64,000 bases of DNA from Chitinophaga vietnamensis (GTDB lineage Bacteria; Bacteroidota; Bacteroidia; Chitinophagales; Chitinophagaceae), in NCBI RefSeq assembly GCF_902167635.1, contig NZ_CABHMS010000008.1:124001-188000 (forward strand), written 5' to 3'. Below are positions 14,141-28,509 of the stretch, in pieces (within the stretch, counting starts at the first letter, position 1; every line of letters begins with the position of its first letter). The notes below the pieces were generated by a model that was not told the origin of the DNA, ran no database searches, and saw only the letters and a list, made by a program, of their open reading frames with translations. The position numbers and the translations under genes are program-made.

Positions 14141-14235
14141 GAGGTTTTTATAGATAGGCTGTTGTATACTGTAGAGGGTTCAAGGCATGTAATAAATATG
14201 GTTTAGGGTAGGTTATCGCTTTGCCCTGTTCTGTG

Positions 14236-14282
14236 TATATCTATTGTTGGTGATCTTTGCATTAACCTTGGTTTCGAACAAC
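14236..14282 (+). repeat. Degenerate terminal CRISPR repeat
   Basis: This 47-bp stretch aligns end to end with the CRISPR repeat. Its 3' half is well conserved (TTTGCATTAACCTTGG…GAACAAC against TTTACATTACCTTTGG…AAACAAC) and the 5' half is mostly lost. It is followed by exactly 31 bp before the first intact repeat, the normal spacer size. It marks one end of the array, on the transcription-upstream side if the array runs on the plus strand. Its -7 box has decayed to TAACCTTG. Confidence 0.75.
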
Positions 14283-14313
14283 TTTGCTGGATATGGATAT
14301 CTGGCTGCCGCCT

Positions 14314-15663
14314 GTTGTGAATTGCTTTCAAACTTTACATTACCTTTGGTTCCAAACAACTAGATGTGCCATTGTGCTACGAAGATAGCTGTTGTGAATT
14401 GCTTTCAAACTTTACATTACCTTTGGTTCCAAACAACGAAGACCATCAAGTTTCACGCAAGCGACAGTTGTGAATTGCTTTCAAACTTTACATTACCTTT
14501 GGTTCCAAACAACTGTATTAGTTTATAAGGCCTAACTGTATAATGTTGTGAATTGCTTTCAAACTTTACATTACCTTTGGTTCCAAACAACAAAATTGAG
14601 CGGCTGGTGGCCCCTCTTGAAGTTGTGAATTGCTTTCAAACTTTACATTACCTTTGGTTCCAAACAACAGTAAAAATAACTCAAATTAAGCATATGCTGT
14701 TGTGAATTGCTTTCAAACTTTACATTACCTTTGGTTCCAAACAACCCAATAGAGGGTACCAGTAGTCTCCAGGTGTTGTGAATTGCTTTCAAACTTTACA
14801 TTACCTTTGGTTCCAAACAACCTCGCAATTGGATTCCCGCCGCCCACGCATGTTGTGAATTGCTTTCAAACTTTACATTACCTTTGGTTCCAAACAACTT
14901 CTTAATGCTAATGACATTTTATCGCTTGTTGTGAATTGCTTTCAAACTTTACATTACCTTTGGTTCCAAACAACGTTTATGAGTATTGTTTCTTTATCTA
15001 TTAGTTGTGAATTGCTTTCAAACTTTACATTACCTTTGGTTCCAAACAACTGAACTTCGGAATAAGTATCTGCCCTGAACGTTGTGAATTGCTTTCAAAC
15101 TTTACATTACCTTTGGTTCCAAACAACGAGCTTCATACACATTACGAAAACCATGTAGTTGTGAATTGCTTTCAAACTTTACATTACCTTTGGTTCCAAA
15201 CAACTGAACTTCGGAATAAGTATCTGCCCTGAACGTTGTGAATTGCTTTCAAACTTTACATTACCTTTGGTTCCAAACAACGAGCTTCATACACATTACG
15301 AAAACCATGTAGTTGTGAATTGCTTTCAAACTTTACATTACCTTTGGTTCCAAACAACAAAGCTCTGCAGGCTTCACACCAAGATAAGTTGTGAATTGCT
15401 TTCAAACTTTACATTACCTTTGGTTCCAAACAACGATGAATTGATCATCTACCATAGGGGCAAGTTGTGAATTGCTTTCAAACTTTACATTACCTTTGGT
15501 TCCAAACAACGGTGATATCGATCACACCGATAGCCGGCGGTTGTGAATTGCTTTCAAACTTTACATTACCTTTGGTTCCAAACAACTAATATGGCACGTT
15601 CCAGCATTTCATCGTAGTTGTGAATTGCTTTCAAACTTTACATTACCTTTGGTTCCAAACAAC
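14314..15663 (+). CRISPR. CRISPR array, type II-C, 18 repeats and 17 spacers
   Basis: There are eighteen identical 47-bp repeats beginning GTTGTGAATTGCTTTC and ending GGTTCCAAACAAC, starting at 14314, 14391, 14467, 14545, 14622, 14699, 14775, 14852, 14928, 15004, 15081, 15158, 15235, 15312, 15388, 15464, 15540 and 15617. Spacers are 29-31 bp. Spacers 10 and 12 are identical, as are 11 and 13, so 15 are unique. The polarity is assigned to plus because the tracrRNA anti-repeat at 21386-21401 is complementary to repeat positions 2-17 in this orientation, where they follow the spacer as required for Cas9 guides. Repeat positions 28-35 read TACCTTTG, a perfect Bacteroidota -7 promoter element. Short ORFs that cross the array are not real. 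Confidence 0.99.
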
Positions 15664-15714
15664 TGACTTTTATGGAATGCCTGCCCGTAGAGGGTTTAGC
15701 CTCCGGAACAGCAT

Positions 15715-17031: not shown

Positions 17032-20000
17032 TCAAATGTTAATATTCCCTAATCTGCCAACTGTTAGTTTAATACAAGATTCTTTGATCATTAATCCATC
17101 TATAGATCGTTCCATTTTATTTGAAGAAGTGAACTCAACTTTATTAACTATACTTGTGGCTACTTCATGTTTAATAAAGAAAACCTGGTTTCCACTAAAG
17201 CTCACTACTTTATATATTCTGCCAACATACTTCGGATGTTTATCCCTGAATGAGATATTTGAGTTTTGTTGTAATTCATCTTCAGTAGGTAGATATACCA
17301 GGTCATTGGGAGAGAGATGAAACAGCAGCGGCTGTCCCTTGATATCCCGTTCAGGAACTGAACTTAGGCCTTGTTTCTGTCGTTCAATAACTATGTTTAG
17401 TGGAATTGATTCGAAACTGCGCTTCCCTTTTTCACCCTGATACACCGCAAAGAATAAATTTGTACCTTTTTCTGCCTCTACAAATTTCCTGGACTTATTG
17501 CCGCTTTGACCCAACTGGAATTTACTCCCTAATTCAAAGACCCTGGCTTTATAAATCGGCTGATGAAACTTCCCGTCATTATAGTCTCTGATATGCTTGT
17601 TAAGCTCTTCAAGTCCCTCGGGGGTAAAAGCCATTTCAGGGTTATTTTCCCTGGCCGCCAGGTAGTTTTTTAATATTTTCTGAATACCTGTATCTGTGAT
17701 AGCTTCAATAGTTTTCAGATCGAAGGACGTGTCAATATCTTTACGCGTAGCGGTTATTATTTTCCCTTTAGGTACCTTGATTCTCGGCAGGTTCACCAGG
17801 CCGGAGACAGTGTCTTTATGCAATGGCTTCCGTATTGCCCAGTTCTGCCCGTTTTGTTTTTGTAATGCTTTGACTTTAACGCCATCCTTTACAACCCAGC
17901 TCTCATAGTGATTCGTAGCCTTGTTAATGATGCGAAGGTTTTGTTTAAAGCTGACAATAATACTTTCGAGCGCGTTTTTAACGCCGACAGTAAAGTTTTG
18001 CCATGGCTTATGAAACTCTTTGGGAATTTCCCTTTCTATTTTTTCGCCGGTTTCAGGATGGATATAACTGACCTGCTCATATCTTCTCAGTTTCCTGTTC
18101 AGATCATAGCGTACCGGCGACTTGGCATACAAATTATTTAACAGGTTGATGTGATCTCTTGTCGTACAACAGATAATTAATGCATCCAGCGCGTGGTGAC
18201 GGTGATCCAACCGTTTCCTGGAAAAGTTTTTTGATTCGTTTAGCGGCACCGTAGGGAGGAACTTTTGATAAGTCTCATTCCAGGCAGTATAGTTCGACGA
18301 ATTGCTCTGTGCATTCATCCGTTCGAACCTCGGAAGGATCAGATCATTCCAGACATCGTTTAACCCCCAGTCCTGTTTTAATATGCCAGTTATCCTACCA
18401 TTCGTCTGAATTAAATTTTTTGAATTAACGCCATCGTCATCAGTTGCTGATCTGACAATATTGGATAAAAGTCCGGAGATAAACTTGCTAATATAACGAG
18501 TGTCGTTGAGTTGTCTTTCTATCATTTTCTCCGGAATATCTTCCATTAAAAGCTTGTTGCGCTTACTTCTGTTCTTTGCGTAATGTTGGTTAACAAAATC
18601 TTCATATTCCTTTACTTCAAAAATACGAACCGTTTTTCCCAATCCTGTCTGTACTATTTCACCATGATGACTTTTGATAAATTCAAGTCCTACCTGGTTG
18701 TCTTTTAACTTGTTTACGGCCGCTTCGCAAATCACTTTATTTGAAAAACTATCATCAAAATACCTGCTTTGTGGAATGATATGTTCAATCTCGTATGCTG
18801 GAGTGAATAACTTATTAAGCGGGATGATAGCCCCGGTATATGGAGAACGGTATTTTTGTTCGAGCCAGAGTTTATATTTTTTTAATTCAGCAGACGAGGG
18901 TTGGGCTATCTTGCTGATTTTGATAATTTCTTCATTGATCTCTATATCAGAATTCAAAACCCCTTCTTCATAGATCTTCAATATTTCCTGTTGCATGGGA
19001 GAATAAGGGCGTACGTTTTCGATGTCAGGGTCATTTAGCAGCTCGCCGAGCAATGCCTTTATTCTCAAATTGGTATTTTCATTTTCTAAAACCTGGTTGG
19101 TAATTTTTTTTCTTTCATCTGCGGGATTTTTCATCTCCCTGCCAAGCTCGATATGAATTTCATCGAAGAAATCACTGGCGCCATTTCCGTATTGTTGCCA
19201 TACATCTTTGACTACACGCATGGTCTCCATTACCACCTGCTCTACAATGGGATTACGTAAGGAGTGCTGCCTGAAATCCTTCAGAAAGGATGCTATATCC
19301 TGTGGTGAACGCCATTTATCTGTACTCGTCGCCTCCGAATGATACCCATATATTATATATTGTGCGAGCCACACCTGCAAGCCCTGGAAGCTGTTTTCAT
19401 GGACTAAATGTATAGCATGTTTTCTAACCCTGTCTTTGATATTTTCATCGTATTCACCGGTAATTATTTTTTCAATTCTGGATTTGGATGACTCATCTAT
19501 GGCCTCCCAATTCCAGTATTTCCCCACACGCATCAGTGGGAGGAGTTTTTTTATGGCCTTCTCTGAGAAAGATCCATAGTCACTTTTGAATGGTGGGAAC
19601 TTCTTAAATGAACTAACAAATGTTACCTGATCGATGCCATATTTTTCAGCAAAGGTTTTTAGCGCCTTCTCATATTCCACTTTATCCGTTACAGAATAGA
19701 TAATATGCCATAACTGATATTCGTGTTCTTTCGTTGGAAATCCTGTTGGTAGGGCATCTACTTTCTCCAATCTGTTTTTTATAAGCGCTCCTGTTTCATT
19801 ACATGGATATATTTTATCACTGACATAATTCCATCTATATTTTTCGATTTCCGCGCTTAGTGCTTTTCCCTTGAACCCCTTTTTTTCCAGGATGAATTTC
19901 AGCAGGTGTTTTTGCTCAATTTCTTTTCTGTTATCCAGGAATCTGAATAACTCTTCCCGGTCTTCAATATTGGTTATAAAATCAGCAGTAACATTGGTAT

Positions 20001-21345
20001 CGTCCATTTTCTTGTAAATAGAAAGATTGTGTTGCCATTGCCATATCCTGAATTCCTGGTAGTAGGGATTTGACTTAGCAATGGCTTTGAGGTACTGCTG
20101 GTGGACGGTGCCATTTTTATCTTTATAGGTACGATATTCCAGCGGGCAATTGGCTATAGAAGATTTCTGACTCTTCAACGGGCGTTGATAAAAGAGAATA
20201 TCATCCATGAGGAGATGTAAAATATCTTTTTCCTTTAAGACAAGCTGGCGGGCTTCATTGCTTCTGTATAGCTCTCTAATGCAATGATTATATACTTCCT
20301 CCTGTTTTAATGCTGCATGAAATTCCTGTTGCTTTAACAGGATTTGCTTTAGCTCCTGTCTATAAAATCTCCGTTCAATTGTATGTATCAATTTGCCCTT
20401 TATTTTTTGCCCAGGCTTTTTTAGCAGGTGGTCGTAAATAAAGGCGCCTACCGTGTTTCGGGAGTTTTCGATTTCTTTTTCAGTTTTCTTTTTTAACAAT
20501 GTCCAGTCACCTTCTGAAGGCGCCCGGAAGCTCCTTTTTTTAATGGTGCCATCATTATCCAGGTCTGTGGTTACAATGAAGTCCCTTGTTTTACCTTTCC
20601 AGTCATATAATGGCACCTTGTTGGAGCGCCTGTATTCCCACCCATTTTCCAACGTTAAGGTATACCATGTCTCTCCTTTTTTGTTTTGTTCTTCATCTGT
20701 CGACACATCCAATATCTTTAACGAGTGGAATTCCACAAGTTTATTAGGATGCTCTTCCTCTTCTTCCCCCCTGAGCTGATAGTAACCACGTTTTTGGTTA
20801 AAATTCAATAATATCCAAGCTAGTTCCTCTTTCTCTATCCTTTCAGCAAGCGCTTTTTTACGGAGGTAATATATCGTCCAGTCGTAGGGTATGAGTTTCT
20901 GTTCCCCCTTTTCGTTTTTTAATAATTCGGGTTGGGATATTTGGAAGTCAGCGAGCATTTCCGAAAAAGACTTTTTAAATATGAAACCATCCTTATCATA
21001 AGGAAGTTTGGGCTCTCCATTTTTAAATTTCCCTAAGCGTTTTTCAAAATCAATTGCAGCCGCATAGTGCGCTGGTAGAAATCCCATTACATTCAATACT
21101 CTGTGAAGACGTTCTCTCCGCAGCAAAAATCGCTCGCGTAACCTTCGTGAGCTCCTGAGCCGTGTACGTTCCGCAGTTTGTGATATGGAATTACCTTTGT
21201 CAAATTCCCCCAAAATATCCTGCGACATAGGTATAATACGCGTTCCCGAAGCAATTATCTCTCCGATTTTATTAGGAAAATCTTGCTTGATGAGTGACCA
21301 ACCAATGGAATTGGTGCCGATATCTAAACCAAAAATTCTTTTCAT
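17032..21345 (-). CDS. cas9: CRISPR-associated endonuclease Cas9, type II-C
   Basis: 1437 residues, at the large end of II-C and typical for Bacteroidota. RuvC-I has Asp8 in IFGLDIGTNSIGWSL. The arginine-rich bridge helix is at about 58-83 (RTRLRSSRRLRERFLLRRERL, slightly longer than a usual core). RuvC-II has Glu733 in HIELGREMKNP. The HNH domain has His855 in YEIEHIIPQS and Asn869 in FSNKVIC. RuvC-III has His1051 and Asp1054 in HRHHALDALI. The C-terminal ~300 residues should bind the PAM, which I cannot predict. All catalytic residues are intact, so the nuclease is likely active. It is the first gene of the operon and diverges from the tracrRNA. Confidence 0.99.
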   Translation of the reverse strand: MKRIFGLDIGTNSIGWSLIKQDFPNKIGEIIASGTRIIPMSQDILGEFDKGNSISQTAERTRLRSSRRLRERFLLRRERLHRVLNVMGFLPAHYAAAIDFEKRLGKFKNGEPKLPYDKDGFIFKKSFSEMLADFQISQPELLKNEKGEQKLIPYDWTIYYLRKKALAERIEKEELAWILLNFNQKRGYYQLRGEEEEEHPNKLVEFHSLKILDVSTDEEQNKKGETWYTLTLENGWEYRRSNKVPLYDWKGKTRDFIVTTDLDNDGTIKKRSFRAPSEGDWTLLKKKTEKEIENSRNTVGAFIYDHLLKKPGQKIKGKLIHTIERRFYRQELKQILLKQQEFHAALKQEEVYNHCIRELYRSNEARQLVLKEKDILHLLMDDILFYQRPLKSQKSSIANCPLEYRTYKDKNGTVHQQYLKAIAKSNPYYQEFRIWQWQHNLSIYKKMDDTNVTADFITNIEDREELFRFLDNRKEIEQKHLLKFILEKKGFKGKALSAEIEKYRWNYVSDKIYPCNETGALIKNRLEKVDALPTGFPTKEHEYQLWHIIYSVTDKVEYEKALKTFAEKYGIDQVTFVSSFKKFPPFKSDYGSFSEKAIKKLLPLMRVGKYWNWEAIDESSKSRIEKIITGEYDENIKDRVRKHAIHLVHENSFQGLQVWLAQYIIYGYHSEATSTDKWRSPQDIASFLKDFRQHSLRNPIVEQVVMETMRVVKDVWQQYGNGASDFFDEIHIELGREMKNPADERKKITNQVLENENTNLRIKALLGELLNDPDIENVRPYSPMQQEILKIYEEGVLNSDIEINEEIIKISKIAQPSSAELKKYKLWLEQKYRSPYTGAIIPLNKLFTPAYEIEHIIPQSRYFDDSFSNKVICEAAVNKLKDNQVGLEFIKSHHGEIVQTGLGKTVRIFEVKEYEDFVNQHYAKNRSKRNKLLMEDIPEKMIERQLNDTRYISKFISGLLSNIVRSATDDDGVNSKNLIQTNGRITGILKQDWGLNDVWNDLILPRFERMNAQSNSSNYTAWNETYQKFLPTVPLNESKNFSRKRLDHRHHALDALIICCTTRDHINLLNNLYAKSPVRYDLNRKLRRYEQVSYIHPETGEKIEREIPKEFHKPWQNFTVGVKNALESIIVSFKQNLRIINKATNHYESWVVKDGVKVKALQKQNGQNWAIRKPLHKDTVSGLVNLPRIKVPKGKIITATRKDIDTSFDLKTIEAITDTGIQKILKNYLAARENNPEMAFTPEGLEELNKHIRDYNDGKFHQPIYKARVFELGSKFQLGQSGNKSRKFVEAEKGTNLFFAVYQGEKGKRSFESIPLNIVIERQKQGLSSVPERDIKGQPLLFHLSPNDLVYLPTEDELQQNSNISFRDKHPKYVGRIYKVVSFSGNQVFFIKHEVATSIVNKVEFTSSNKMERSIDGLMIKESCIKLTVGRLGNINI

Positions 21346-24112: not shown

Positions 24113-25210
24113 TTACTTACTAATGAAGATCTGCCTTAACTGATCTATCAACACCCCATTGCCATTGACGCTAATGTTGTTGATCTTCTCTGCAATCTTC
24201 TCCACATATTCCATTTCTTTCAGTTTAAACAGCATAGGATTATCTTCCATCAGCCTGGCGGTATTCAGCAGGCTCCTGGTGCTGGCAGTTTCTTCCCTTC
24301 TCATGATAATATTGGCCTGCGCTTTCTTTTCAGCGATCAGTACCTGGTTCATGATCTCTTTCACATCGCCTGGAAGCACGATATCCCTGATGCCGAAGTC
24401 TTGTACTGAAATGCCCAGCCCTGCTGTCTTTGAGGCTACCGCTTCCAGGATGAATGGTGACAGGGTATCTTTTTTGTCCAGCAGATCATCGAACGTTAAC
24501 GCACCTACGTATTCACGCAGTGCTAACTGGAAAAGGGTATACAACTGCTTTTCGTGATCCTTGTTCTGCAACAAGGCACGCGCTATATCACTGATGCGGA
24601 ACTGTGCCCAGGCATTGATACGCAAAGCCGCCTTGTCTTTCGTCAGGATCTCCTGGCCGTTCATTTCCTGTTGCTGCTGACGCATATCTACTCTTTGCAA
24701 GTTGATAACGGTGCTATTTACCCACCATTGGTAGATGCCTGGCTGCAGTACTTTTGCAAATTTCGCATCGATGAACAACAGGCCCGCTTCATGTTCTTCT
24801 ACCCGGTAGCTTCTCACGTAAGCCGCCATCAGCCTGGACGACAGGATGAAGGGATCTATCTCTGCAGGGATATCTATCCTGCTGATATCTATATGAACGA
24901 ATTTATAATCGACTGTATTTTTCCAGTAAGTATATCTTCCGGATGTCAGTACTTTTTGTAGCAAACCGTTTTCGTATTGCAGCGCGATTTCATTATCGCC
25001 CACATTCACTACCTGTAATGCGGCTGCCAATGCGGCGTCTTGCAGGAGCGCGTTCAGCTCCAGCGGCGCATTGAACGGTTGATAGATGTCATAGATTTTT
25101 ACCTCTTCATTACCGAAGAACCAATATCTGCCTTCTTTCAGCATCTCCTGGTAAACACCTCTTTTGAATACCAATCCTCTTTCGTAGGCATTCACTACTA
25201 CTTTTTTCAT
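24113..25210 (-). CDS. Slipin / SPFH-domain protein
   Basis: 365 residues from the ATG at 25210, chosen because the chain then starts MKKVVVNAYERGLVFKRG as in slipins; an ATG 39 bp upstream is possible. The SPFH/Band 7 domain covers about 100-290. Typical features are NEIALQYENGLLQKVLTSG, KAALRINAWAQFRISD, ALREYVGALTFDDLL and LGISVQDFGIRDIVLPGDVKEIMNQV. Helical coiled coil follows (IAEKKAQANIIMRREETASTRSLLN, rich in A, E and R). No clear transmembrane helix is seen. SPFH proteins form ring scaffolds. Slipin genes are known to occur in RNA-repair (RtcB) and Ro60-Y RNA gene neighbourhoods, which is relevant because the 500 bp upstream carry tRNA-like RNAs on the same strand. No rtcB or Ro60 gene is in the window. 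Confidence 0.85.
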   Translation of the reverse strand: MKKVVVNAYERGLVFKRGVYQEMLKEGRYWFFGNEEVKIYDIYQPFNAPLELNALLQDAALAAALQVVNVGDNEIALQYENGLLQKVLTSGRYTYWKNTVDYKFVHIDISRIDIPAEIDPFILSSRLMAAYVRSYRVEEHEAGLLFIDAKFAKVLQPGIYQWWVNSTVINLQRVDMRQQQQEMNGQEILTKDKAALRINAWAQFRISDIARALLQNKDHEKQLYTLFQLALREYVGALTFDDLLDKKDTLSPFILEAVASKTAGLGISVQDFGIRDIVLPGDVKEIMNQVLIAEKKAQANIIMRREETASTRSLLNTARLMEDNPMLFKLKEMEYVEKIAEKINNISVNGNGVLIDQLRQIFISK

Positions 25211-25282
25211 ATGCTTGTTTTTAGGGTTCTGAATAATGATCACCGGCATTGTAGCTCATCAAACCTGCGCGGAGGCCATATG

Positions 25283-25359
25283 ATCACACCTTTTCGCTTA
25301 CTACATTGAAACACTTGCTGCCCCAGGTGCGCACTTGTATGTAAGCGGCCGTATGTGAT
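25283..25359 (-). ncRNA. Structured RNA segment upstream of slipin
   Basis: Nested inverted repeats on the minus strand: ATCACA (25359-25354) with TGTGAT (25288-25283), CGCTTAC (25347-25341) with GTAAGCG (25301-25295), and an inner CACCTG/CAAGTG stem. It begins 73 bp upstream of the slipin start. It could be a 5' UTR element of slipin, or a part of a Y RNA-like molecule with the permuted tRNA-like element further upstream. Polarity is inferred from context. Confidence 0.5.
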
Positions 25360-25489
25360 GCCAGCCGGCCTGCAAAGTGCCGGAACGATTGGAAGAATTC
25401 CTTCCTGAGCGGCCAATACCGGTGATTTTAAGACATCGCCATGTTTATAGAAGCGGCGGGCTTCTGCGAATATGGATACATGATCCAGA

Positions 25490-25548
25490 CTGTTGCTCTA
25501 TCCATTGAGCTACGCCGAAGCGGAAGGACTCGAACCTTCAACACACAG
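25490..25548 (-). ncRNA. Circularly permuted tRNA-like element (Y RNA-like mimic)
   Basis: Read on the minus strand, the order is CTGT, a 5-bp T-arm (GAAGG-TTCGAGT-CCTTC with canonical T-loop), a 3-bp mini acceptor stem capped by a tetraloop (CGC-TTCG-GCG), the TA linker, a D-arm (GCTC-AATGGATA-GAGC), then ACAG, which pairs with the initial CTGT in the place of the anticodon stem. The T-arm thus precedes the D-arm, the acceptor end is closed, and no CCA end can form, so it cannot be charged. Bacterial YrlA-type Y RNAs are known to mimic tRNA and to sit in RNA-repair loci. The full transcript limits are unknown; flanking sequence from about 25420 to 25640 may belong to it (outer pairing CGCCAT with ATGGCG is possible). 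Confidence 0.7.
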
Positions 25549-25677
25549 ATAATACAAGGATGCGTCTTCGTTGCAACAGCATACGGTGTTTATGGCGCCG
25601 CACTATGGGGTGTTGTGAAACCCTCATCCGGTTTGCATTGCGATCACTCTCCAGGCTTCCAAACAGGAAGATCTTTA

Positions 25678-25753
25678 TGGTTGGCCTGGCCGGATTTGAA
25701 CCGGCGCTCCACTGCGTATAAGGCAGCTGCGCTCACCACTGCGCCACAGGCCA
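25678..25753 (-). tRNA. tRNA with anticodon TAT (Ile, AUA-reading)
   Basis: A 73-nt cloverleaf plus encoded CCA. The acceptor TGGCCTG pairs with CAGGCCA, the D-stem is GCGC/GCGC, the anticodon stem is GCTGC/GCAGT with loop CTTATAC (anticodon TAT), the T-arm is GCCGG-TTCAAAT-CCGGC, the discriminator is A, and CCA follows. All helices pair. Bacteria normally read AUA with a CAU tRNA modified to lysidine, so a UAU anticodon is unusual. The encoded CCA also contrasts with tRNA-Asn and tRNA-Gly in this window. It may have come by transfer or belong with the adjacent tRNA mimic. Confidence 0.88.
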
Positions 25754-25801: not shown

Positions 25802-25934
25802 CAATTTTCACGTAGCTATTACACGTGTTGACAACAAGGTCGTTGATGCAGGTATACAGTTGTCCATCTGCTACCGCCAATAAATGATGTATGTATCAAT
25901 TGTTTGATCATTTGCAATGTTTTAAAATAAAAAA

Positions 25935-25980: not shown

Positions 25981-26079
25981 TTACTGTTCTGCATCATAAC
26001 ATGCACCGCAACGGCTGGTGAAACTGGGTGTCCAGCTAAACAGGCTTGTGTGTTTTATATTTCTTTCGTTGCGTATCAT
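25981..26079 (-). CDS. Possible 32-residue peptide
   Basis: An ATG-initiated ORF of 32 codons with two Cys near the end (SRCGACYDAEQ at the C-terminus) and a basic N-terminus (MIRNERNIKH). It is bounded by a good promoter (26100-26132) and a strong terminator, with only 24 bp between its stop and the terminator stem. Such compact units usually encode either a small protein or a regulatory RNA. I do not recognise the peptide, and no signal peptide or membrane helix is seen. If it is not translated, the unit is a small RNA of about 155 nt. Confidence 0.4.
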   Translation of the reverse strand: MIRNERNIKHTSLFSWTPSFTSRCGACYDAEQ

Positions 26080-26099
26080 GTGTAATTTTTTTGACGGTG

Positions 26100-26132
26100 C
26101 AAAGATGGAGATATTTTTTTGATTATTCCAAA
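26100..26132 (-). promoter_or_regulatory. Promoter of the small minus-strand unit
   Basis: On the minus strand TTTG (26132-26129), 21 bp, then CATCTTTG (26107-26100), which fits TAnnTTTG at seven of eight positions. It is 20 bp upstream of the short ORF. Confidence 0.55.
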
Positions 26133-26203: not shown

Positions 26204-26211
26204 TATATTTG
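26204..26211 (+). promoter_or_regulatory. -7 box of the MazG-helicase unit
   Basis: TATATTTG is a perfect TAnnTTTG box, 36 bp before the chosen ATG at 26248. Its position also argues against the alternative TTG start at 26209, which would lie inside the promoter. Confidence 0.55.
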
Positions 26212-26247
26212 TTAGTAGTAGCATTACATAAATCCAGCGATTCTGTT

Positions 26248-26586
26248 ATGTCTGACCTTGATGTAATAATTAAAGCCTTAATCCACTTCCGTGATGAGCG
26301 CCATTGGGAGCAATTCCATGACTCCAAAAATCTGGCAGCCGCCATTTCTATTGAAGCAGCTGAATTAAATGAACTTTTTCTTTGGAAAGATATTGCCGCT
26401 TCCGAGCAGGTCGACAAGGAGAGATTAAAAGAAGAGCTGGCAGATATTTTTGCCTTTTGTTTTCTGTTGGCCGATAAGCACAAATTAGATGTGAAGGAGA
26501 TCGTACTCGAGAAGATAAAGAAGAACGGGGAAAAATATCCTGTTCACAAAGCGAAAGGGTCAGCCAAAAAATATAATGAATTATAA
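26248..26586 (+). CDS. MazG-like nucleotide pyrophosphohydrolase
   Basis: 112 residues from the ATG at 26248. It is an all-alpha MazG-like fold with the metal-binding motif EAAELNELFLW (ExxxL-E pattern, about residues 38-48) and the second acidic pair in EELADIFAFCFLLADK (about 65-80, ExxD type). The basic C-terminus ends PVHKAKGSAKKYNEL, which is common in this subfamily. It hydrolyses (d)NTPs to monophosphates and may deplete or clean the nucleotide pool. It lies 27 bp before the nuclease-helicase gene and shares its promoter, which suggests a two-gene unit. MazG-family enzymes are found in many phage-defence loci. Confidence 0.88.
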   Translation: MSDLDVIIKALIHFRDERHWEQFHDSKNLAAAISIEAAELNELFLWKDIAASEQVDKERLKEELADIFAFCFLLADKHKLDVKEIVLEKIKKNGEKYPVHKAKGSAKKYNEL

Positions 26587-26613
26587 GCCTCAACCCGCAT
26601 TTGACTTCCCTAT

Positions 26614-28509
26614 ATGATTATTTACCAGAAAAGTAAGCAGGACTTTATTGAAGATTTATCCTCCAATGATATCCATAATATCATTGCCGCAGCCATCAAA
26701 CAGAAAACCGGCAAAAATACCGGACAAGGAGAATTGAGCTCCTTCGAGACCTCATTACAGAAAATGGGAATAGTACTTAGCCATAAGGACATTCCGAATG
26801 ATTGTCTGGTTGCGATAGAATACCATTTCCCATTAACCTCGAAGCGGGCTGATTTCATTATTACCGGTACGGACGGGCAGCGCGAAGCTATCGTAATTAT
26901 TGAATTGAAAGGATGGAAAAGTGCAACACTTACCACCCAGGACGGAATGGTAAACACACAATTCAAACATGGGTTTAAAAATACCTGGCATCCAGCTTAT
27001 CAGGCATGGTCGTATGCCTCATTGCTCAAGCACTTTAATGCAGTAATTGAAGAAGAGGAAATTCATGTGAAGCCATGTGCGTATTTATATAACTATTCAA
27101 AAGATGACACCATTACGAATGTTATCTATAAGAATTATTTAGATAAAGCGCCTGTGTTTTTAAGATCAGATGCCGCTGAATTACGAGCTTTTATTTGCCA
27201 ATTCATTAAACAAAAAGAAAGTGCAAATATACTTGCCCGACTGGAGAAGAGTGATATGCGACCAGGAAGAGGGCTTATGGATTGTATTGCTGACGTAATG
27301 GATGGCAGGGATGATCTGGTACTTATCGATGATCAGAAAGAAGTGTATGAGATAGCGATGGAACTTGCACGTAACTCGCACGTTGCGAATAAAAATGTGC
27401 TGATTGTAGAAGGAGGCCCAGGCACAGGAAAATCGCTTGTAGCAATTAAATTGTTGGCAGGACTGATTTCGAATGGACTGGCTGCAAAGTACGTTACAAA
27501 AACTCAGGCGCCAAGGAATGTGTATTTCAGCAAATTGAGCGGCGTAAAGCCAATGACCGAACTAAGAAATCTCTTTGTTGGTTCAGGGGCATTTACAACG
27601 GCTACGTCAAATAGCATCCCTGTTCTTATCATTGACGAAGCCCACCGGTTGACAGAAAAAAGTGGACCATATCGAAATGGTACAAATCAGGTTAAAGAGC
27701 TTATTGACACTGCTTTGTGTCCCATCTTCTTCATCGATGAAGATCAGACGGTACATATGGATGATTATGCGACTATTGAAGTAATTAAAGATATCGCGAC
27801 CGCTGCAGGGGCTAATATACACTGTGTTGAGCTTGCATCCCAATTCCGTTGTGGGGGATCTGATGGCTATTTGGCTTGGATCGACCAGCTATTACAGATC
27901 AGGGAAACCGCCAATATTTCATTTGATGGCGCAGCATATAACTACGATTTCAGAGTAATTGATACACCGAACGAGTTATACGACATCATCTACGAGAAGA
28001 ATAAAGTGAATAATAAAGCTCGTTTGGTAGCAGGTTATTGTTGGAATTGGGACAGCAGAAGAAATGAGAATATCTATGATATTACTATTCCGGAACATAA
28101 CTTTAAGATGAAGTGGAATTTTCAAAACTATAATGCAGCCTGGATCATTGATCCCAACTCTATTAGTGAGGTAGGATGTATACATACAAGTCAGGGGTTG
28201 GATGTAGATTATATCGGAGTTATCATAGGTAAAGACATGATAGTGGAGAATGGTCAGGTAAAAGTGGACCCATCCAAACGAGCAAAGGACGATAAATCTA
28301 TCCGGGGGTATAAGAAAATGCTGGCAGAAAAGCCAGAAGAAGCAAAGAAGAAGATTCGGGCAATCATTAAAAATACTTACAGGACATTAATGACAAGGGG
28401 AATGAGAGGCTGCTATGTATATTGCGAAGATAAAGAACTGGAAAAATATTTCAAGGAAGCATTGGCAATATCAGCAGCACAGATGTATGTCGCGCAGCCC
28501 GGTAAGTGA
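26614..28509 (+). CDS. DUF2075/Schlafen-like SF1 helicase with N-terminal nuclease domain
   Basis: 631 residues. The N-terminal ~200 residues hold a PD-(D/E)xK-like core: Glu69, Asp80 in KRADFIITG and Glu97-x-Lys99 in IIELKGW. The helicase part has Walker A GGPGTGKS (267-274), Walker B IIDEAHR (339-345), FFIDEDQTV (372-380), ASQFRCGGSDGYLAWID (409-425), motif V HTSQGLDVDYIGVIIG and motif VI TLMTRGMRGCYVYCED. This matches the DUF2075 family, also called Schlafen group-3 helicase. It would act on nucleic acid in the cytoplasm. All helicase motifs are intact. With the upstream MazG gene it forms a probable anti-phage or stress pair; the role is inferred from domains and context. Confidence 0.88.
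   Translation: MIIYQKSKQDFIEDLSSNDIHNIIAAAIKQKTGKNTGQGELSSFETSLQKMGIVLSHKDIPNDCLVAIEYHFPLTSKRADFIITGTDGQREAIVIIELKGWKSATLTTQDGMVNTQFKHGFKNTWHPAYQAWSYASLLKHFNAVIEEEEIHVKPCAYLYNYSKDDTITNVIYKNYLDKAPVFLRSDAAELRAFICQFIKQKESANILARLEKSDMRPGRGLMDCIADVMDGRDDLVLIDDQKEVYEIAMELARNSHVANKNVLIVEGGPGTGKSLVAIKLLAGLISNGLAAKYVTKTQAPRNVYFSKLSGVKPMTELRNLFVGSGAFTTATSNSIPVLIIDEAHRLTEKSGPYRNGTNQVKELIDTALCPIFFIDEDQTVHMDDYATIEVIKDIATAAGANIHCVELASQFRCGGSDGYLAWIDQLLQIRETANISFDGAAYNYDFRVIDTPNELYDIIYEKNKVNNKARLVAGYCWNWDSRRNENIYDITIPEHNFKMKWNFQNYNAAWIIDPNSISEVGCIHTSQGLDVDYIGVIIGKDMIVENGQVKVDPSKRAKDDKSIRGYKKMLAEKPEEAKKKIRAIIKNTYRTLMTRGMRGCYVYCEDKELEKYFKEALAISAAQMYVAQPGK

Follow-up and report, generated by a model that had tools for sequence, protein, structure and literature searches.

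Introduction

The TrcR repressor of Anabaena governs rtcB, the slipin gene alr0740 and a silent operon of 26 tRNA genes, and expression of alr0740 rises 42-fold when TrcR is missing (PMC10272220). A second described relative is YrlA (Rfam family RF02553), as in the Salmonella rsr-yrlBA-rtcBA locus; Hughes et al. suggest that the tRNA-like domain of YrlA might competitively inhibit an anticodon nuclease (PMC7790460). Clustered tRNA genes with a proposed antidefence role also form the mycobacterial tRNA array units, which are found on chromosomes, plasmids and phages, and for which the available text of two papers mentions neither slipin nor mimic nor attenuator (PMC12803027, PMC5966550).

Here we describe a minus-strand locus of Chitinophaga vietnamensis in which a permuted tRNA mimic lies between a tRNA gene and a slipin gene, within a stretch of 64,000 nucleotides hereafter called the window. 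The Anabaena trn operon and TrcR regulon share with our reading of this locus normally-off reserve tRNAs, induction by translational stress and the association of slipin with RtcB (PMC10272220). There a protein repressor acts on separate loci; the Chitinophaga locus is a single linked cluster that carries apparent attenuators and a mimic. The module of T-arm, capped acceptor stem and D-arm and the RNA-repair neighbourhood are shared with YrlA (PMC7790460), and the clustering of tRNA genes with the mycobacterial units.

In the literature searched, whose coverage is partial, we found no description of the combination of mimic, tRNA array, attenuators and slipin, and an earlier description may exist. 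Burroughs and Aravind in 2016 and Chen et al. in 2014 may, reportedly, describe slipin or tRNA-like neighbours. We consider it probable that the mimic is part of a Bacteroidota translation-stress and tRNA-repair operon opened by attenuation.

A permuted tRNA module upstream of a slipin gene

Read 5' to 3' on the minus strand, the locus consists of the following features.

26098..26132, minus strand: putative Bacteroidota-type promoter, TTTGG (26132-26128) followed by CATCTTTGCA (26107-26098), 20 nt before leader ORF 1
25981..26079, minus strand: leader ORF 1, 32 codons
25927..25958, minus strand: intrinsic terminator 1, AGGCCCCGCAA/TTGCGGGGCTT and a T-run
25819..25911, minus strand: leader ORF 2, 30 codons
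25773..25801, minus strand: intrinsic terminator 2, AAACCGGTCGT/ATGGCCGGTTT and a T-run (from our own scripts; absent from the list of the terminator scan)
25678..25753, minus strand: tRNA-Ile (anticodon UAU), 71.4 bits, the sole tRNA between leaders and mimic in the window
25573..25636, minus strand: structured RNA domain A, multibranch, closed by GCAA/TTGC, supported by double changes
25489..25549, minus strand: YrlA-like permuted tRNA module (anticodon-like stem, T-arm, UUCG-capped acceptor stem, D-arm), supported by sequence, RF02553 match, covariation and the R1 model
25239..25426, minus strand: RNA domain B, closed by a long-range stem, ATCACCGGTATTG ... CAATGCCGGTGAT, and ending 28 nt before slipin
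24113..25210, minus strand: slipin (SPFH/Band_7), 365 aa from the conserved start, PF01145 113 bits (scored on the ORF from 25249)

Divergent from these genes, 26209-28509 of the plus strand holds a MazG-like gene and, after it, a Schlafen-group-3-type helicase that matches NERD weakly. The window also holds a type II CRISPR locus (14234-15668 and 17032-21345, minus strand), with an array of 19 repeat units at 76-78 nt spacing, the first one degenerate, and a Cas9 of 1437 aa with RuvC_III, HNH_4 and bridge helix.

Read directly on the minus strand, the 5' side of the module is TCTGT (25549-25545), GTGTT and the T-arm GAAGG/TTCGAGT/CCTTC (25539-25523). A cap, CGC/TTCG/GCG (25522-25513), occupies the position of the acceptor stem, and the 3' side comprises TA, the D-arm GCTC/AATGGATA/GAGC (25510-25495), a single A and the closing strand ACAGT (25493-25489). 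The arm order is hence anticodon-like stem, T-arm, CGC-UUCG-GCG hairpin, D-arm and, last, the strand that closes the anticodon-like stem; a T-arm before a D-arm, a CGC-TTCG-GCG linker and pairing ends on the minus strand are what the preliminary description had reported. The acceptor end is closed by a tetraloop, and the complete cloverleaf of a tRNA, with anticodon loop and open acceptor, is not formed. By script the window cap has four pairs, three Watson-Crick and one U-G inside the UUCG loop, and is the shortest among 27 modules. A single-sequence fold of the module was no more stable than shuffles (z +0.27), so that its support is comparative and not energetic.

For the comparison, 37 Chitinophaga stretches and the window were used. 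Slipin is held by 33 of them, and 27 of these 33 pass the module pattern (L085, L089, L091, L092, L093 and L098 fail it). A core set of 25 loci, window included, was chosen for having slipin, module and more than about 425 bits in tblastn; L067 and L076 passed the module pattern and fall outside the core for want of a tRNA array in the stretch. We aligned 26 Chitinophaga modules, window excluded, under a permuted-tRNA structure written by hand. In this alignment 95.6% of cells are paired vs 82.0% after shuffling, and double-change cells number 79 vs 23.1, a value equalled by none of 500 shuffles. Changes on both sides affect 14 of the 20 pairs, including all six cap pairs, and double changes are present in all four helices. 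The covariance model built from the alignment (R1) gives 59.8 bits on the window (E 7.4e-18, R1 E-values being rough). These comparative data confirm that the predicted minus-strand RNA at 25489-25549 is a tRNA look-alike beyond chance. Together with an RF02553 match to the tRNA-like part, covariation and R1 bear out its earlier reading as a permuted tRNA mimic of YrlA-like build.

A slipin alignment searched against genome contigs returned at least 552 relatives, and the 80 best named loci among them were taken further; nearly all of these are labelled Bacteroidota, and one is a MAG labelled Rickettsiales. The module was tallied from the best 150 of 266 R1 matches after dropping those that overlap ARAGORN tRNAs, a procedure under which a tRNA missed by ARAGORN could hide behind an R1 match. 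On this tally a module lies at most 900 nt upstream of slipin in 74/80 loci, and in 67/73 when the seven Chitinophaga-labelled ones are left aside; the median distance from its 3' end to slipin is 372 nt in the 74 loci, and only two of the best 150 of 266 matches lie elsewhere without tRNA overlap. Conservation of the T-arm/tetraloop/D-arm order upstream of slipin in relatives had been set in advance as a test, and the order was found in the 27 of 33 Chitinophaga slipin loci and the 74 of 80 named loci given above.

The module within a larger structured RNA

The mimic is the middle domain of an RNA of about 400 nt between array and slipin. For domain A, we drew the structure manually on the alignment. 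Its pattern was passed by 23 of 24 relatives; L075 was left out, and the window, which failed the pattern, was added by hand. Double-change cells amount to 32 vs 9.0 in shuffles (0/500; 24 sequences, 22 distinct), and on one of five measures 6/500 shuffles reach the observed value. The closing helix of domain B, taken as the best helix between the two regions and without a shuffle control, has 6-12 Watson-Crick pairs at a like place in 22/25 core loci, among which the letters change; it is missing at that place in L066, L070 and L075. No Rfam family over cut-off was seen in domains A or B.

This arrangement raises the question whether domain A, mimic and domain B act together as a cis-acting 5'-leader that regulates slipin, for instance via a tRNA-binding protein or a tRNA-processing enzyme, and not as a free RNA. 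Array and slipin flank all three domains, the last of which stops 28 nt short of the slipin start, and in several loci the closing stem of domain B is followed by a T-run. We hold such a cis-leader to be rather unlikely, and it would be compatible with the main reading, namely that the mimic belongs to a translation-stress and tRNA-repair operon.

Relation to YrlA and Ro60

In a 1-kb search, RF02553 matched the window module with 33.9 bits (E 2.2e-5), below the gathering score of 69. The match spans positions 23-85 of the 114 of the model, that is T-arm, capped acceptor stem and D-arm; the outer parts (positions 1-22 and 86-114), which we take to be the Ro60-binding stem, have no match in the window. 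YrlA was not listed by a 64-kb Rfam scan at gathering scores, and RF02553 was above cut-off in none of 60 genomes of the genus. When the region was scanned with Rfam in two relatives, only tRNA exceeded the cut-offs, and the matches below them were YrlA, a 34-bit tRNA-Sec at the place of a tRNA-Tyr and weak sRNA matches. A permuted tmRNA model was also tried and discarded, its 11.6 bits falling at the neighbouring tRNA.

Weak RF02553 matches occur in 58/60 genomes and also in 11/14 control genomes; since junctions of tandem tRNAs score as well, no tally was taken from these matches or from a phylum-wide R1 scan with matches in 213/296 genomes at E up to 1e-6. Compared with YrlA, the window module is below cut-off, lacks matches to the outer parts and has slipin and not Ro60 as its neighbour, and loci of its type have an upstream tRNA array and leader/terminator units, with at least two R1 matches in 33/80, some of them weak. 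Tandem permuted modules just upstream of slipin were observed in L112, L114, L117, L118, L121, L127, L137, L140, L148, L154 and others, the match of the second module often being without the closing stem. Another UUCG-capped module, of 49.5 bits, lies within an Emticicia tRNA array (L146:786-853), about 3.2 kb before slipin.

The absence of Ro60 from the locus, as first read, extends to the whole genome: the 99.98% complete 6.3-Mb assembly of the window's genome (G000) has no match to TROVE (PF05731). The module could nonetheless be a canonical YrlA or Y RNA left behind after loss of its Ro60 partner. It is YrlA-like; Ro60 is encoded in 27/60 Chitinophaga genomes, often beside YrlA-like matches (e.g. 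G016 C3, G022 C6, G041 C1, G010 C7), and such Ro60-linked YrlA-like RNAs are sometimes multicopy, as at G016 C3:690198-693290 and other Ro60 loci. Most of the slipin-linked copies listed match RF02553 only at about positions 23-88, which argues against this origin; coverage of the model is however no clean separator of slipin-linked from Ro60-linked copies because exceptions exist in both kinds. Whole-model matches (1-114), with scores under cut-off, are found in four slipin-linked copies (L016, L019, L020, L036), and some Ro60-linked copies match the middle only (G041 C1, G071 C9). Also against a Y RNA left behind are the absence of detectable Ro60 from 15/25 core genomes with a slipin-linked module (the window's and 14 of 24 others), the presence of Ro60 near slipin in only 3/80 named loci, and the occurrence of slipin-linked and Ro60-linked copies at different places in one genome (e.g. 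G010, G056, G058, G059, G074). We regard a Y RNA stranded by Ro60 loss as improbable, and an assignment to YrlA or Y RNA proper, as earlier suggested, does not hold for a module that is below the Rfam cut-off, whose outer model parts are unmatched in the window and whose Ro60 partner was not found. A YrlA-like mimic within a slipin operon is the reading that we retain.

Comparison with tandem tRNA junctions

Junctions of adjacent tRNAs in arrays have the same arm order as the module and match R1 too, up to about 47 bits. The module might thus be a functionless remnant of two tandem tRNAs, the 3' half of one and the 5' half of the next. Cap pairing differs between the two: 4-7 pairs in 25 of 27 modules (two and three in the remaining two), vs 0 or 1 in 45 of 60 junctions (range 0-5). 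The double changes in the cap stem and the anticodon-like stem and the retention of the module in 74/80 named loci likewise speak against a remnant, which we consider very improbable; the covariation argues against it as a full explanation, and as an origin it may apply. At the equivalent place in Photobacterium sp. GJ3, between RtcR and slipin-RtcB, lie two degenerate normal-order tRNAs (L226:4665-4806), which would offer a possible evolutionary route and perhaps represent the ancestral state of the mimic. The R1 match there (46.4 bits) proved on inspection to be the junction of these two tRNAs and was therefore not counted as a module.

Permuted tRNA genes resemble the module in arm order, and processing to a working tRNA is practically dismissed, since the acceptor is a closed hairpin of 3 bp and a 4-nt loop into which a 7-bp acceptor and CCA do not fit, no anticodon loop is seen by eye past the stem, and ARAGORN, run on the window, calls no tRNA at the module. 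With these alternatives weighed, we return to the mimic as one component of a probable regulated operon.

Two leader ORFs and terminators precede the tRNA array

The attenuators of amino-acid operons such as trp and his combine a leader ORF with competing antiterminator and terminator structures. The Chitinophaga locus is like them in this respect, and unlike them in having a tandem pair of units, mixed-codon leaders and a position upstream of tRNA genes and slipin. The order leader ORF 1, terminator 1, leader ORF 2, terminator 2 precedes the tRNA array in all 25 core loci, where the leader ORF was picked by us among the candidates of each locus (in L086 a 32-codon over a 51-codon ORF, leader 2 of this locus having just 14 codons); a stricter terminator-1 pattern fails in 5/25. 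A CTTTG element is located 20-30 nt before the leader-1 ATG in 25/25 core loci, and we presume that the element at 26098..26132 belongs to the Bacteroidota-type class of promoters, which the sigma-70 scan that was run does not cover.

In the window, TTGCGG at the 3' end of leader ORF 1 (26011-26006) complements CCGCAA of the terminator-1 5' arm, giving six pairs as read by eye; the best site by script also has six pairs and is located elsewhere. In leader ORF 2, AACGACC (25844-25838) complements GGTCGTT of terminator 2 over seven pairs. The anatomy of an attenuator, a leader ORF just before a terminator with the alternative strand inside the ORF, is thus present at the window locus, with only six pairs in unit 1. 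The last codons of leader 1 typically hold TTGCGGGGC, the letters of the terminator 3' arm, which gives the 5' arm, GCCCCGCAA, two alternative pairing partners. At least seven Watson-Crick pairs are formed by the complementary strand of leader 1 in 22/25 core loci (L099 six, L078 five, window six), and this strand usually starts 23-27 nt before the stop codon. For leader 2, the best script site is at the 3' end in 11/25 loci, window included, and elsewhere in 14/25. When window unit 2 was folded from inside the leader and without the 3' terminator arm, the antiterminator appeared in the minimum-energy fold; the corresponding fold of unit 1 is uninformative because the folded piece still held part of the 3' terminator arm.

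A mechanical detector of ORF-borne antiterminators found 23 units in 298 kb of upstream DNA, in 22/80 named loci; 18 of them, in 18 loci, are outside the Chitinophaga-labelled loci. No unit was detected in downstream DNA or on either reverse strand (301, 299 and 301 kb), downstream DNA being a mild control because it is probably mostly coding. The pairing letters vary by lineage, several being unrelated (GCGGGGC, CGACCGG, TGCTTCG, AGATCGGG), and the pairing is therefore kept while the sequence changes.

Relative to 110 long ORFs of the same stretches, His is enriched 4.6-fold in the leaders and Tyr, Cys, Ser, Gln and Ile 1.5- to 1.7-fold, with Val, Glu, Ala, Leu and Asp depleted. The enrichment correlates by rank with the tRNA counts of the arrays (0.49, p 0.03, a p value that is optimistic because the loci are related). 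The share of array amino acids in the leaders is equalled by 0/500 nucleotide shuffles, and His reaches 7.5% and 10.2% vs about 4%. However, array amino acids are almost as frequent in the remaining two frames as in the leader frame (leader frame 0.572 vs 0.542 and 0.511; 0.658 vs 0.597 and 0.474), and no purifying pattern by codon position was seen in the leader peptides (changes 26/33/31 and 59/45/54), so that sensing of specific tRNAs is only weakly supported. Support is firm for the ORFs and the pairing, and not for which tRNAs might be sensed.

tRNA arrays, slipin and RtcB

The arrays of the 25 core loci contain 1 to 8 tRNAs, and Ile-TAT is present in 19 of them. Among the 80 named loci, ARAGORN predicts tRNAs on the slipin strand, 203 of them upstream and 20 downstream, and none on the opposite strand; 50 loci have at least one upstream tRNA, up to 16, and 30 have none within the examined flank. 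For one relative (G024), we set the eight tRNAs of the array against 40 others from the same genome, which are not its full complement. Six of the eight are 57-77% identical to the tRNA of the same anticodon elsewhere in the genome, and five of these six differ in the anticodon loop 3' of the anticodon; the two Ile array tRNAs have no same-anticodon counterpart among the 40. tRNAs for NAN codons make up 101/200 in the named arrays vs 13/40 in G024 (p 0.04), an enrichment that is doubtful because downstream tRNAs in the same loci give 10/20. Three Chitinophaga stretches without slipin (L090, L094, L095) also hold a tRNA-Ile(UAU), with tRNA-Gln in two of the three and an RlaP-like match in L094 and L095.

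Within positions 127-346 of the slipin profile, PDB chains of stomatin, QmcA, HflK and HflC match, several of them deposited with many chains. No transmembrane segment is evident in the window slipin (maximum 19-residue hydropathy 1.31), the highest value among 15 homologues being 1.78. No match to slipin was obtained in phages, and tblastn found no relatives in viral contigs among 484 candidate stretches.

RtcB, taken as the best tblastn match per locus and confirmed by PF01139 in one of the cases, follows slipin by about 50-2174 nt on the same strand in 45/80 named loci and on the other strand in none. It is adjacent to slipin in 0/37 Chitinophaga stretches, and the gene is present in 59/60 Chitinophaga genomes, the window's genome having one copy on contig C6. 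The preliminary description had considered the locus an orphan or simplified form, having seen no rtcB beside slipin. This view is not supported: RtcB is encoded elsewhere in the genome and after slipin in the 45 named loci, and the module is part of a larger unit of promoter element, two leader/terminator units, tRNA-Ile(UAU), RNA domains and slipin. A relative of RlaP (query PF10127) is near slipin in 7/80 loci, and an Aquimarina locus has KptA and a Macro protein.

Outside Bacteroidota, slipin relatives of 35-41% identity link slipin to RNA-repair loci with RtcR: one adjoins rtcR in Citrobacter (L224), and one stands between RtcR and RtcB in Photobacterium (L226). Another precedes RtcB and RlaP in Subdoligranulum (L223). 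These loci differ from the Chitinophaga locus in having RtcR or other regulators beside them and no tRNA array in the stretches examined; their tRNAs are one tRNA-Pro in L223 and the degenerate pair of L226.

Discussion

The sequence features, the covariation, the co-location with slipin, the strand bias and the order of the parts were observed directly. From them we infer a single transcript with an induction signal, and functions for its tRNAs, mimic and slipin, as follows. Transcription would start from the conserved promoter element and normally end at the two tandem terminators. Upstream of each lies a short leader ORF, the 3' end of which is able to pair with the terminator 5' arm. A ribosome completing the leader would cover the pairing strand, and the terminator would form (OFF); a ribosome stalled in the leader would leave this strand free for the antiterminator (ON). 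Stalling might be caused by a lack of charged tRNAs (His, Tyr, Ile, Gln and others), e.g. after anticodon cleavage. Read-through would then yield reserve tRNAs (Ile-UAU in the window, up to 16 tRNAs in relatives), the structured RNA with the permuted mimic and slipin, with the RtcB ligase next in many relatives. The mimic would probably be a tRNA-shaped decoy or docking module for nuclease or repair machinery.

The steps of this scheme differ in strength. The attenuator anatomy makes it quite likely that ribosome stalling opens the terminators. Their divergence and the Anabaena parallel suggest, with somewhat less assurance, that array tRNAs replace damaged ones. For the mimic, the suggestion of Hughes et al. 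led us to guess at a role as decoy or docking module, which we put forward tentatively. Equally speculative is the wider proposal of a phylum-wide, ribosome-read alarm for tRNA damage, in which the tandem leaders would sense the simultaneous loss of several charged tRNAs and, through antitermination, release divergent reserve tRNAs together with a mimic that binds RtcB and a non-membrane slipin cage, forming a Ro60-free repair particle.

The apparent attenuator opens the locus to direct genetic testing in culturable Chitinophaga, Flavobacterium or Niastella. If the proposal is true, Y-RNA-type mimics, reserve tRNA arrays, RtcB repair and slipins would form one linked cluster with a readable switch; three of these four elements are already joined in the Anabaena regulon. 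It would also suggest why divergent spare tRNAs are kept, give slipins a place in RNA repair, and mean that Y-RNA-like modules are retained without Ro60.
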